DNA of 10,000 nucleotides from Treponema sp. GTDB taxonomy: Bacteria > Spirochaetota > Spirochaetia > Treponematales > Breznakiellaceae. Below the pieces are notes generated by a model, which saw nothing but the letters and a program-made list of their open reading frames with translations, searched no databases and had not been told where the DNA came from. This document shows, piece after piece, positions 4,075-8,696 of this stretch. Within the stretch, counting starts at the first letter, position 1; each line of letters starts with the position of its first letter. Both the position numbers and the translations under genes were made by a program. The stretch is from NCBI GenBank assembly GCA_020216655.1, contig JAIWNU010000009.1:1-10000 (forward strand), written 5' to 3'.

Positions 4075-4848
4075 ATGATTGCTGCAGATGAGGTAAACGG
4101 CAAAATTCTATATCAGGATACGGATCACATGTTTATTTGGCTTGGGGCGGATCCGGAGAGTGCCTCTGGGGTCGTGCAGACCAATCAATATCTTATTATT
4201 GATAAGGGCCGCGGGGTCCTCCTTGATCCAGGCGGCATCCACCTCTTTGCCCGGGTTGTAGCGGTTGCCAGCCGCTACATTTCGCTTGATAAGATTGATA
4301 CTATCTTTTTTTCCCATCAGGATCCGGATGTTTCCTCCGGTATTGCCCTGTGGCTTGGGGTGACTTCTGCAAAGATATATGTCAGTTCCCTTTGGCTGCG
4401 GTTTTTACCCCACTTTGGTATCGTGGATCAGAGCAGGATGGTTGGGATAGAAGAGTTCGGTAACACCTTTAAACTCAGCTCTGGGGCACTCCTGCGTTTT
4501 CTGCCTGCCCATTTTTTACATTCTACGGGAAATTACTCAGTCTTCGACGAACGGTCTGGTATTTTGTTCTCCGGTGATATTGGAGCTGCGGTTTTCCCAG
4601 CAGGAAAAGAACAGCTTTTTATAGATGACTTCCCAGCCGCTTTGCCTTTTATTGAGCCCTTCCATAAACGGTATATGGCCTCCAATAAAGTGACCTCCTT
4701 GTGGGTGCGCCAGGTCCGTGAATTAAAACCCCGCCTGATTGCAGCCCAGCATGGGGGTGTATATCGAGGGGATGCGGTTTCAGCCTTCCTTGATTGGCTG
4801 GGTAAGCTTACCTGCGGAATCGATACTATCGAATCCATCTATAAATAG
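4075..4848 (+). CDS. Oxygen-binding diiron protein (ODP), stand-alone flavodiiron-type metallo-beta-lactamase domain
   Basis: 257 residues, one metallo-beta-lactamase fold of the kind that forms the diiron half of flavodiiron O2/NO reductases. The ligand set is in place: His81, Asp83 and Asp85 in SHQDPD, His146 in PAHFLHS, Asp168 in FSGDIG, His226 in AAQHGG. The positions and spacing closely follow the flavodiiron pattern, with Asp instead of Glu in the second position. There is no C-terminal flavodoxin domain and no signal peptide, so it is a cytoplasmic protein without its own electron-transfer partner. The start codon is ATG with GGAGG 6 nt upstream. The next gene, 14 bp downstream, is a chemoreceptor without a sensor domain. 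This pairing is the described ODP-receptor system (T. denticola), in which ODP binds iron and oxygen and tunes chemotaxis. I infer the same role. A glyoxalase- or hydrolase-like role is less likely given the ligand set. Confidence 0.88.
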
Positions 4849-4862
4849 AGAAAGGGTATACC

Positions 4863-5726
4863 ATGACGGATAATACGACTTCTTTCGAAAATAGTTCCCT
4901 GGCGATTCGGAAATTTGTACGCGGGTATAATAAAAGCATCGTATTAAATACGGTCACCCTCCGCTCTTTAGATATTATTGGTTACAATCTTGAGCGTATT
5001 GGTTCAAGCCTTTCTTCTATTGTAGCAGCCTTTGAAGAAATTCGGGCCACGAGCCAAACTACTTCAAATAATGCCGACAAAATTGATGCAATGATGGACG
5101 GCATTTTAACTAAAAATGCCAGTACGGGTGCTGAAATTACCCAGCGGGTTCAAGATATTAACCAGGCGGTTGAAGGAACTGCGCGGCTTTCTACGTTGTT
5201 TGCGGATCTGGCGGAGAAAGCAAAAAGCATTGCATCGGTAACTGGTTCAATCCAGGATGTATCGGACAGGACTAATATTTTGGCCATCAATGCTTCTATC
5301 GAAGCTGCCCGGGCGGGCAATGTGGGCAAAGGGTTTCGGATTATAGCCAATGAGGTCCGTACTTTAGCTGGGCAAACCGGTGATTTTGCAAAGACGATTG
5401 AGGCGACCATTAGTGATTTTGAATCCGTTGTAGGCGAAATTACGAAGGAATTGCAGGGATTTACCAAGGTTCTAGAGTCTTTTAAACAATCCTTTTCGAC
5501 TGTTTTGGATAGTTTTCAGACCAATGCTAAATCCATAGACGAAACGGGTGCTTTCTTAAATCAGATTTCAGGATCTATCAGGGAAGAAACAACCGCACTC
5601 ACCGATGGTTTAAATTCCCTTGAACAGATTTCTACCTCTCTTAAGGACACCAATGTCGTTTTTGCTGCCCTATTGAAGACTTACGGAAATTTGGATACCC
5701 TTCTGGACAAAGAAGGAAACCGTTAG
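4863..5726 (+). CDS. Soluble methyl-accepting chemotaxis receptor, signalling hairpin only
   Basis: 287 residues, almost entirely helical, with no transmembrane segment, HAMP domain or recognisable sensor domain. The hairpin tip that contacts CheA/CheW is canonical: conserved block from about 124 to 171 including [14 protein letters not shown] (139-152) and [10 protein letters not shown] (163-172). The tip lies near the middle of the chain, so the two arms are nearly equal and the protein is little more than an antiparallel coiled-coil hairpin. Short N- and C-terminal extensions (about 1-25 and the last ~20 residues) could dock the partner. No CheR/CheB-binding pentapeptide is seen at the C-terminus. 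The start ATG is preceded by AAAGGG with a 5-nt gap. The gene lies 14 bp after the ODP gene, and its stop TAG overlaps the next GTG start. Its input is presumably supplied by ODP, giving cytoplasmic oxygen or iron sensing. Confidence 0.92.
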
Positions 5727-7108
5727 TGTCCGATTTGGTTCTGCTTATTTGGCTTATCATCGGCCTTGTTGGCCTGGAACTCCTGCGGCCGTTTTTTAAA
5801 AGTATCCGGGATGTAGCTGGATTTCTTTTATTTCCCCTTCTCGCATTACTGCTTATAATTGTCAGCGCTTTTGTTTATGGATTTCGGCCTGAGATTATTC
5901 CCTTAGGTATAGTGATTTTTTTTATTGCTGTTTTTCGCATACCCATGCTTATTTCTTTGATGCAGGGGCTCCGAATCGATGAAGATCGAAATCTATCGCT
6001 GATACGTGTCAGCATTGGGATACTTTTTTTAGGCCTGGCTGGATTTATAGCGATCCGTTTCTCGCCGCAGGAAGGATTTTATACCAGGCCCGTTTCTGAT
6101 GCTTCAACTTATGAAACAATGGTTTTAAAAGGGCAAAGCGGAAGCCCTGAGTATTTTGTTAGAAAATATATTTCTAAAGAGAATGAACCAAAGGGAACAA
6201 TACTGCTTATTCCTCCGGTAAATGGATCTGTGGAAGTTGTCGACACCATTTGTGTTGCATTAAAATCCCGCGGATTTTCAGTTTTTACCTTTTCACAACC
6301 TGGTATAGATATCCCCGCCTATGATGTACTCAATAAGGCGATTTTTCCATCAATACGAAATACTGGATCCTATGTACTGAGTTTTATTGCAGGGCTCCAG
6401 GTTAAGGCAGCCCATCAATATGGGATTTATTTTGAAAAGACCCGGATGGAGGCGCTTGATTTTCTTCTCAAGAATATAGAAGTGGCAGAAAAGCTGTATG
6501 TTGTCGGTTATGGGGCTGGAGGGGCTGCAGCTCTTAAGTACACTGCGGAGCATGCTGAGACCAACATTGCTGGTATAATAAATGTGGAAGGCCCGCTGTA
6601 TTCCGTGCTTGAGTTCCCCGATTCTGGCGGAAAAACATCAGGCTTATCGCTGCTCTTAGAAACGTTACTGCCCCATCCTGCCGTGCATATCGGAACTATA
6701 CCGGCAGTACAAAAACCGCTTTTAATCCTCGCTTCGGATAAAATAAAACGGACCGATCAAAGGGACAGCCGATATGCAACTCTCGTGAGAACTGTCCATA
6801 TGGCTCAAGCCCCTGCGGTGATAGCGGCCCTTACCGGCGCTGGCCCCTTTGATTATTCGGATGTTCCTATGCAGTATCCAGTTTATTCATCCCTTATGGG
6901 CGGCGATGGAAACAGGGTGCGCAATTCAGGCTATTATATTGATGCAACGGTGGCGCTTATTTCCAATTTTATTTGCAGTATCGAAAAACGCCAATCGATG
7001 GGAAATACCGAGTTGTCGTGTTCATCAATTCCCGTATCGGGAGATGTCTATATTGAATATAATGATTTTACTAAGAGTTATAATCCTCGGGAGGTATTGG
7101 GGAAATGA
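5726..7108 (+). CDS. Polytopic membrane protein with alpha/beta-hydrolase-like domain, probable pseudoenzyme
   Basis: 460 residues. Four predicted transmembrane helices (about 4-21, 33-51, 57-76, 92-110) are followed by an alpha/beta-hydrolase-like domain (~155-420). Positive charges in loops 1 and 3 suggest those loops are cytoplasmic, placing the hydrolase domain outside the cytoplasm. An oxyanion-type strand is seen in TILLIPPVNGS (158-168). The nucleophile elbow reads GYGAGG (261-266), with Gly263 where the catalytic Ser is expected. A later GAGPFDYSD (371-379) resembles the His-containing block of acylhydrolases but has Pro374 in place of His. If these alignments hold, the domain cannot hydrolyse by the usual triad and may bind a ligand or protein instead. 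The GTG start overlaps the receptor stop (TAGTG) and has AAGGA 8 nt upstream. The stop overlaps the next ATG. I do not recognise a named family. Confidence 0.75.
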   Translation: MSDLVLLIWLIIGLVGLELLRPFFKSIRDVAGFLLFPLLALLLIIVSAFVYGFRPEIIPLGIVIFFIAVFRIPMLISLMQGLRIDEDRNLSLIRVSIGILFLGLAGFIAIRFSPQEGFYTRPVSDASTYETMVLKGQSGSPEYFVRKYISKENEPKGTILLIPPVNGSVEVVDTICVALKSRGFSVFTFSQPGIDIPAYDVLNKAIFPSIRNTGSYVLSFIAGLQVKAAHQYGIYFEKTRMEALDFLLKNIEVAEKLYVVGYGAGGAAALKYTAEHAETNIAGIINVEGPLYSVLEFPDSGGKTSGLSLLLETLLPHPAVHIGTIPAVQKPLLILASDKIKRTDQRDSRYATLVRTVHMAQAPAVIAALTGAGPFDYSDVPMQYPVYSSLMGGDGNRVRNSGYYIDATVALISNFICSIEKRQSMGNTELSCSSIPVSGDVYIEYNDFTKSYNPREVLGK

Positions 7109-7866
7109 CATCTAAACAGCTTGATGCATATTTTCGCTCATTTTTGGATATCGAAGGTTTTTCCCGTAGCGACGACTCGGTGAATGGATTGCAGGTGGAT
7201 AATAATGGTAGTGATATAAAAAAGGTTGCCTTTGCAGTAGACGCAAGCTTGGAATCATTTACGTTAGCTGCCCAGCGGGGTGCTGGGATGCTTTTTGTGC
7301 ATCATGGACTTTTGTGGGGAAAACCTACAGCTTTGACGGGAATTATTAGGACCAGGCTGCAGGTTCTCTTTGAACACAACATTGCCCTTTATGCGGTTCA
7401 TTTACCGCTAGACCAGCATCCCGAAGTAGGAAACAACGCTGTTCTTGCAGACTTGCTTGGTCTTGAACAGCGGGAACCCTTTGGTCTCTACCATGATCAG
7501 AAAATAGGCTACAAGGGGATATTCAAAGAGCCCGTTTCTATAGAAGAAGCGGTGAAACGAATCAGCTTTATGGATCGGCCTCCGATAGGGGTGTTCCCCT
7601 TCGGTAAAAAGGAGATTCGTTCCTGTGCAGTTGTTTCTGGCGGAGCGGCGATGGAAGCCTTCCAGGCTGTTGATGAATGTCTTGATTTGTATATTACAGG
7701 GGAAAGTTCCCATAGTGTGTATCACTACGCAATAGAAGGCAAACTTAACATGATCGCCGGAGGCCACTATTCTACCGAAGTTTGGGGTGTCAGGCGAGTT
7801 ATGGAAAAATTGGCGAACGAAACGTCTCTTGAAGTAGAATTTTTAGATATTCCTACGGGATTGTAA
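7105..7866 (+). CDS. Nif3/YbgI-like dinuclear metal-centre protein
   Basis: 253 residues, matching the compact form of the Nif3-like (DUF34, YbgI) family without the extra middle domain. Family motifs in order: VNGLQV (26-31), FVHHGLLW with His66-His67 (64-71), YAVHLPLDQHPEVGNN with His99 and Asp103 (96-111), DLYITGESSHSVYHY (194-208), and GGHYSTEVWGVR with His221 and Glu225 (219-230). These residues form the dinuclear metal site of the family's toroidal hexamer. Members have been linked to GTP cyclohydrolase I-type and metal-related roles, but no common reaction is established, so I assign none. The ATG overlaps the preceding TGA (ATGA), with GGGAGG about 10 nt upstream, suggesting coupled translation. 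It is soluble and cytoplasmic. Confidence 0.92.
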   Translation: MTSKQLDAYFRSFLDIEGFSRSDDSVNGLQVDNNGSDIKKVAFAVDASLESFTLAAQRGAGMLFVHHGLLWGKPTALTGIIRTRLQVLFEHNIALYAVHLPLDQHPEVGNNAVLADLLGLEQREPFGLYHDQKIGYKGIFKEPVSIEEAVKRISFMDRPPIGVFPFGKKEIRSCAVVSGGAAMEAFQAVDECLDLYITGESSHSVYHYAIEGKLNMIAGGHYSTEVWGVRRVMEKLANETSLEVEFLDIPTGL

Positions 7867-7881
7867 AAAGGAGCTGTAAGA

Positions 7882-8412
7882 ATGGAATTTAAAAAGCAAA
7901 AAATGCTTCCCTTCCTGTTAACCCTGGTTGTGATCCTTGCAGATCAGGTCTCGAAGAGTTTTATTGTGTCCCGGTGGCCCCGGGAGGGTACTTTTATTAA
8001 AGATGTGTTTGGCAATGATTTTTTATGGATTATCCATGTTCGCAATAAAGCCATTGCCTTTAGCATTGGTGACGGGCTGCCAGACCAGCTGCGGGCCCTC
8101 TTGTTTATCATATTGCCGCTTATCGTAATCGGGGTTTTACTTGTCTATTATTTTAAAACCGATGAGTTTACCCTGTTACAACGTTGGGTTGTGGCTGGTA
8201 TTGTTGGCGGAGGTCTTGGCAATTTAATAGACCGAATCTGGCGCCCTGATGGGGTTGTCGATTTTATCAGTGTTAATGTATATGGTTTTCTTGGCTTTGC
8301 CCGCTGGCCTACTTTTAATATTGCCGATTCCAGTGTGGTTGTTTGCGGTATTTTGCTGGTGCTCAGTATGCTGTTTATCAATTCTAAATCGGCAAGGAAG
8401 GAGTCATTGTGA
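7882..8412 (+). CDS. lspA: Lipoprotein signal peptidase (signal peptidase II)
   Basis: 176 residues, normal length for this inner-membrane aspartic peptidase, which cleaves the signal peptide from diacylglyceryl-modified prolipoproteins. Four hydrophobic helices are seen (about 9-28, 70-90, 101-115, 150-166). Conserved family positions present: Asp21 in ADQVSK, Asn55 in VRNKAIAF, GNLIDRI (113-119), VVDFI with Asp127, and FNIADSS with Asn146 and Asp149; Asp127 and Asp149 are the expected catalytic pair. The substrate-side motif usually reads NxGxAF, and here an Ala stands for the Gly. The ATG has AAGGAG 8 nt upstream and lies 15 bp after the Nif3-like gene. The stop overlaps the next GTG (GTGA). 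Spirochaetes are rich in lipoproteins, so it is probably essential. It has no obvious functional tie to the chemosensory genes upstream. Confidence 0.96.
   Translation: MEFKKQKMLPFLLTLVVILADQVSKSFIVSRWPREGTFIKDVFGNDFLWIIHVRNKAIAFSIGDGLPDQLRALLFIILPLIVIGVLLVYYFKTDEFTLLQRWVVAGIVGGGLGNLIDRIWRPDGVVDFISVNVYGFLGFARWPTFNIADSSVVVCGILLVLSMLFINSKSARKESL
8397..8403 (+). promoter_or_regulatory. Ribosome binding site inside the lspA 3' end
   Basis: GAAGGAG, within the last codons of lspA, precedes the overlapping GTG of the 95-residue gene by 5 nt. It supports that unusual start, because no ATG with a good site exists near this position. Confidence 0.6.
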
Positions 8413-8696
8413 ATAAAAAGGCTAATACGATTGTATTTATGCTGGTGGCCACTGTGTTTAATGTGGTTATTACGGTTGCGTGTTTTGTGGTGCTGCTTAT
8501 CCTTTATGGACGGCTGCTTGCACCGCTCTTACCCCAGGAAACCGCAGCAATCGGCCTTCCCATTGTTTTTATTGGTGCGATAGTGCTTTCTTTTGTAATT
8601 TACCGATATGCACTTAAAGCGTTTACCAAACGGTTTGAGACAGAAAAATATTTTGATCCCCTTATCAAGCGCAGCAGGCCGCCCAAAAGAGATTAA
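8409..8696 (+). CDS. Small two-helix membrane protein downstream of lspA
   Basis: 95 residues with two strong hydrophobic helices (about 8-33 and 48-66) joined by a short loop containing PLLPQE. The basic N-terminus (NKK) and a strongly basic tail of about 30 residues ending RSRPPKRD suggest a hairpin with both ends in the cytoplasm. It has no cysteine lipobox or enzymatic motif. The GTG start overlaps the lspA stop by 4 bp, with AAGGAG 5 nt upstream, so translation is probably coupled to lspA. I recall small proteins beside lspA in treponemes being annotated as leader peptide processing enzymes, but nothing in this sequence shows catalysis. An accessory or adaptor role near LspA is only a guess from position. 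It ends in TAA at a stop-stop overlap with the convergent gene. Confidence 0.8.
   Translation: MNKKANTIVFMLVATVFNVVITVACFVVLLILYGRLLAPLLPQETAAIGLPIVFIGAIVLSFVIYRYALKAFTKRFETEKYFDPLIKRSRPPKRD

Follow-up and report, generated by a model that had tools for sequence, protein, structure and literature searches.

Background

ODP, the oxygen-binding diiron protein, is said in a 2019 PNAS paper to bind O2 as a stable peroxo adduct on its two irons and to affect phosphorylated CheA. Two sets of solved structures belong here, namely 6qnm and 6r9n, which I take to be the ODP of Treponema denticola (TDE2498), and 6qrq and 6qwo, presumably that of Thermotoga maritima. Zinc enzymes of the same metallo-beta-lactamase fold carry the motif HxHxDH.

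According to the available part of one report, TDE2498 is the T. denticola ODP and its receptor, TDE2496, can modulate CheA although it has neither membrane nor sensing modules; the same text gives a single CheA in that genome, describes a CheW-CheR-like fusion, and states that the array densities seen by cryo-ET give no obvious position for ODP (PMC7666581). ODP interacts with its receptors directly and in a conformation-dependent manner, as stated in the available text of a further paper (PMC6978683). A 2019 survey, as the available part of the TREND paper relates it, found operons that join ODP and receptor genes in either of two orders, others in which ODP stands with different signalling genes, and fusions of ODP to signalling domains (PMC7319448). 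Both the ODP-receptor pair and the use of ODP beyond it were therefore known already.

The pair described in this report lies in the window, i.e. the whole stretch of 10,000 nucleotides that was analysed. It is very probably the orthologue of TDE2498 and TDE2496, a cytoplasmic oxygen/iron taxis module.

Results

Identity of the ODP and its predicted diiron site

The two genes of the pair are the following:

4075..4848, + strand: ODP, 257 aa, with ligands H81, D83, D85, H146, D168 and H226 (open reading frame, PDB search, Pfam, alignments).
4863..5726, + strand: cytoplasmic chemoreceptor, predicted to be a hairpin only, 287 aa, tip at residues 139-152, 14 residues (open reading frame, PDB search, Pfam, conservation profile, AlphaFold2).

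Only two distinct PDB sequences, both ODPs, match the window ODP at E 0.001 or better: 6qnm (E = 6.7e-108), a match far beyond chance, and 6qrq (E = 2.7e-86). The former is 62% (0.616) identical to the window protein in the alignment made here and 95.6% identical to the ODP of T. putidum; where it aligns with the ODP of locus L091, the two sequences are the same throughout (100%). Both 6qnm and L091 are assumed to be T. denticola, an assumption drawn from that identity.

In Pfam, the ODP family PF19583 matches over its full profile (1-194 of 194) with 238 bits against a cut-off of 27.2; Lactamase_B is also found (62 bits), and at E 0.001 there is no flavodoxin domain, nor anything beyond these two, in the 257 residues. 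Taken alone, the Pfam ODP match is weak evidence, because PF19583 also matches a protein of 404 aa with a different motif in the same genome (L115; 68 bits, plus Lactamase_B). This protein is 25% identical to the window ODP in the alignment made here, and reads HxExDH, with Glu at position 83, where the window ODP reads HxDxDV; no flavodoxin domain was found in it at E 0.001, and the label flavodiiron-like refers to nothing but its length and motif. For the window protein, a glyoxalase or lactonase identity, singled out beforehand as the outcome to look for among the best matches, was rejected on the ligands and on the matches, which in the PDB are the two ODPs only at E 0.001. Likewise, a flavodiiron identity was rejected, no flavodoxin domain having been found and the motif being different.

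All six ligands are present in the window ODP and invariant across an alignment of 24 sequences with 61-86% identity. Genome contigs were then scanned with two peptide patterns, FSHQDPDV and [VI]QT[NM]QYLI, and the best 80 loci out of 195 relatives were retained. The ligand set is complete in 77 of these 80, the exceptions being L003 (D85N, in one MAG), L046 (a gap at H81 that arose when the sequences were cut back to their final 275 residues) and L068 (truncated at a contig end). The conservation of positions 81-86, and of the first three ligands among them, is partly due to selection, since FSHQDPDV contains those ligands. Val at position 86, also favoured by the search pattern, occurs in 80 of the 80 loci, while L115 has His there. 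At position 247, 75 of the 80 have Cys, two have Ser and three a gap or X, against Val or Ile in all nine members of a second ODP group (see below). Column 146 holds P, not H, in ten other ODP domains and in L115, which I take to be an apparent shift of the alignment.

The D85N locus (L003, 5001-5771) comes from a MAG of the same species; D85 is present in P0001, a protein of 98% identity. The substitution is either a variant or a sequence error.

Pairing with a receptor and distribution

In 78 of the best 80 loci out of 195, the ODP gene is closely followed by a receptor gene in the same orientation; in the remaining two (L068 and L078) the contig stops within the ODP gene. The gap ranges from -8 to 250 nt over the 78 loci (median 11), 14 nt separating the ODP stop from the receptor ATG in the window. 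Receptor length has a median of 286 aa and falls between 277 and 298 aa in 71 of 78; the seven outside this range comprise three truncated at contig ends, one split over two frames, two made short by the start codon chosen and one of 306 aa. The record titles of the 80 loci include Spirochaetota, Aquificaceae, Thermodesulfobacterium, Thermodesulfovibrio, Nitrospiraceae and Thermotogae. The distances among ODPs and those among receptors correlate with r = 0.78 over 73 pairs, the window included, a figure that still contains shared phylogeny and that none of 1000 permutations reached.

At the level of the phylum, some PF19583 match at E 0.001 was found in 328 of 392 genomes, many of them weak, and a match of at least 229 bits in 45 of the 392 among the rows listed, both ODP groups pooled. 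In the family of the window a match of at least 229 bits occurs in 4 of the 17 genomes listed, and the module is therefore patchy there. A normal-sized receptor adjoins the ODP in 21 of the best 30 loci of this search and is absent beside the other nine. Beyond the phylum, a search with the window ODP counted 4076 relatives at E 0.001, some of which may belong to other families than ODP.

Other arrangements of ODP

A second ODP group (L116-L122) is found without a normal receptor. In each of the seven loci examined, of nine, a gene for 182-205 aa lies just upstream of the ODP gene on the same strand, and its product looks like a receptor tip that lacks the long N arm. Five of these seven mini-receptors match MCPsignal with 18-37 bits (two above the cut-off), the other two not at all. 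The model of one family (P0241) has five helices, with a mean pLDDT of 88.7 and a pTM of 0.79; a fold search of this model against the PDB found nothing at E 0.001 or better, and receptor chains came up only as weak matches. The tip Glu of normal receptors is absent, by eye, from all 19 aligned mini-receptor rows, so that binding to CheA or CheW may have been lost. The arrangement itself may be already known, two gene orders being on record in the available part of the TREND paper (PMC7319448).

Elsewhere, the ODP domain is fused to a SpoIIE phosphatase and TPR (L123, L124), to GGDEF (L125) or to GGDEF and a receiver (L126-L128), or is encoded next to a guanylate cyclase (L130, L131) or a histidine kinase (L132).

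The receptor and where ODP may dock

MCPsignal (96 bits) is the sole Pfam domain of the window receptor over its cut-off. Its PDB matches are cytoplasmic receptor domains, residues 44-241 (198) aligning to 296-479 (184) of an MCP I (Tsr) chain. The AlphaFold2 model, built on an alignment of 40 sequences, has helices at 4-150 and 156-285 and no further element (mean pLDDT 87, pTM 0.46; end blocks at pLDDT 65 and 57). The receptor thus modelled appears to have no membrane, sensor or HAMP part.

So far the original prediction is borne out: it had described an ODP without flavodoxin domain and with an intact ligand set (His81, Asp83, Asp85, His146, Asp168, His226), placed 14 bp before a receptor that is the signalling hairpin alone, and had read the two as orthologous to the T. 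denticola pair, with which the identity to 6qnm, the receptor also present at L091 and the pairing across relatives agree.

Two segments of the receptor deserve to be singled out:

4923..4967, + strand: residues 21-35, hairpin base, candidate ODP docking site (conserved among spirochaete rows).
5013..5072, + strand: residues 51-70 with E58 and E59, candidate methylation (adaptation) region of the N arm (conservation; role suggested by a motif).

They were drawn from a conservation profile of 73 receptor rows, 52 spirochaete and 21 other, sorted by record titles (those of L027 and L074 name no phylum). Six rows below 275 aa were left out, namely L017, which is in two frames, L024, L048 and L056, cut by contig ends, and L029 and L077, which are short because of the start codon chosen. 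Conservation is highest in the tip region, at about 131-180. In the 52 spirochaete rows, information content further peaks at 21-30 (3.1), 51-70 (3.5 and 3.1) and 231-250 (2.8 and 3.1), and is lowest at 1-10 (1.3) and 281-287 (1.7). Over all phyla, segment 21-30 drops to 2.2, against 2.8 at 51-60, and is not outstanding. E58, E59, E241 and E242 are conserved and would be putative methylation sites.

The short terminal extensions of the receptor had been proposed as the sole docking candidates outside the hairpin. The proposal holds only in part: in the model the extensions barely exist beyond the two helices, and the ends are the least conserved parts. For this latter reason the base of the hairpin itself may be the better candidate, although the profile is a weak pointer. 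Specifically, ODP might dock on the base (about residues 21-35 together with the adjacent C-arm terminus), replace the HAMP/membrane part and push the rod where ordinary receptors get their signal; I regard this as a tentative proposal, somewhat more apt to be wrong than right. It derives from the conservation profile, which covers ODP-linked receptors only. Furthermore, segment 21-35 looks like a spirochaete signature that diverges elsewhere, and on this alignment it cannot be the whole docking code. ODP positions that are common to receptor-linked ODPs and different in other ODPs include V86, S87, G89, T97, A99, R109, F174 and D250; if docking at the base is true, these would include the matching surface.

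A short receptor of the same genome, C63 (288 aa), was considered as an unlinked control and rejected: it runs to the contig end, and a 96% identical relative in genome G451 sits in a frame of 553 aa, which makes it a longer receptor that has been cut. Another short receptor of the genome, C123 (272 aa), has an atypical tip.

Neighbouring genes

Upstream of the pair, Lon-like and HDOD genes lie on the opposite strand. Downstream, the order is as follows:

5726-7108, + strand: fast-changing gene, which overlaps the receptor open reading frame by one base, the last of the latter.
Within 7105-8696, + strand: NIF3, LspA and a 95-aa gene.

The 5726-7108 gene has no match in Pfam or NCBIfam; its counterparts in L005-L007 are 25-28% identical, as compared to 60-74% for NIF3 and LspA in those loci, and by eye its product looks like a membrane-anchored alpha/beta hydrolase. 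No Pfam match was found in the 95-aa gene. At E 1e-10, and within the DNA covered around each locus, 10 of the best 80 loci have NIF3 and LspA near the pair, 9 have the 95-aa gene and 5 have the fast-changing gene. Promoter-like matches near the pair (3, against a shuffled mean of 3.2) and terminator-like matches (3 against 2.3) are close to chance.

Host genome and chemotaxis genes

The source genome is a 2.66-Mb assembly of 251 contigs, 90% complete. Over the ODP, its nearest named relative among the best 80 of 195 loci is the Gracilinema caldarium MAG L003, 97% identical; G. caldarium belongs to the Treponematales (Spirochaetota). The genome holds 24 MCPsignal matches, three CheA genes and four flagellin matches. 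On one contig (C75) a CheA with a P2 domain, a CheW-CheR fusion and CheX stand side by side; the other two CheA genes are on contigs C166 and C248. Because there are three CheA genes, the target kinase of the pair is uncertain. At one tip position the window receptor has Arg; the comparison covers 20 other receptor open reading frames, three weak MCPsignal matches being left out, and gives His in 12 and Arg in five (with ALNAA(I/V)EAARAG tips), the remaining three being atypical. The tip of the T. putidum receptor (L028) has the same 12 residues as that of the window.

Discussion

How the pair may work, and other readings

In the proposed mechanism, ODP would bind two irons and then O2, and the oxygen-bound protein, docking perhaps at the hairpin base, would alter a receptor devoid of sensor, membrane and HAMP parts. 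The receptor tip, whose canonical sequence is kept, would relay the change to CheA in the chemosensory array, the most likely target being the kinase beside the CheW-CheR fusion. The window pair would sense oxygen or iron, and the sign of the response is likewise presumed.

The pair might also work as supposed and yet signal to the CheA of C166 or C248 instead of that of C75, with an output different from that of T. denticola. I consider this unlikely, though it deserves to be kept in mind. The genome does offer three CheA genes, and the Arg at the window tip, where 12 of 20 other receptor frames have His, is shared with the five ALNAA(I/V)EAARAG frames; on the other hand, T. putidum has the very same tip, and its relative T. 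denticola is described in the available part of the report as having a single CheA (PMC7666581).

Much less probable is an ODP that is mainly an enzyme, a flavodiiron-like scavenger of O2 or NO sitting beside a receptor by chance. The metallo-beta-lactamase fold, the type of diiron ligands and the Lactamase_B match would all suit such an enzyme, but no flavodoxin domain was found, the motif is HxDxDV against HxExDH in L115 (404 aa, 25% identity), and chance proximity sits badly with a receptor neighbour in 78 of 80 loci. Along the same line, a zinc metallo-beta-lactamase of glyoxalase or lactonase type with an unrelated function would share the general fold and nothing more; with Asp83 and Val86 in the ODP, the latter in 80 of 80 loci (a count favoured by the search pattern), and with ODPs as the matches in both PDB and Pfam, it is scarcely credible. 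The reading of the pair as an oxygen/iron taxis module is thus preferred here. With it, a spirochaete related to G. caldarium would join the hosts of a studied module, and the alignment of 73 pairs marks a definite segment for the question of how a detached sensor might drive a bare signalling rod. In this genome, unlike in T. denticola, three kinases would be available to the pair.

Comparison with known systems

Flavodiiron proteins resemble the window ODP in fold and in the type of diiron site; the latter differs from them in having no flavodoxin domain, and it has Asp83 and Val86 where L115 has Glu and His. The ODP of 6qrq and 6qwo, presumably from Thermotoga maritima, belongs to the same family and has the same ligands (HDDHDH), yet it is 53% identical to the window ODP in the alignment made here. 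As for T. denticola, the gap between the two genes is roughly 140 nt or more at L091, taken to be that species, against 14 nt here, and the present host is instead near G. caldarium (L003). Three CheA genes stand against the one reported there, whereas a CheW-CheR fusion is common to both genomes (C75 here), as far as the available part of the report goes (PMC7666581). The T. denticola pair is alike in its two partners: its ODP has 62% identity to that of the window and shares all six ligands, and the adjoining receptor is without membrane or sensor part.
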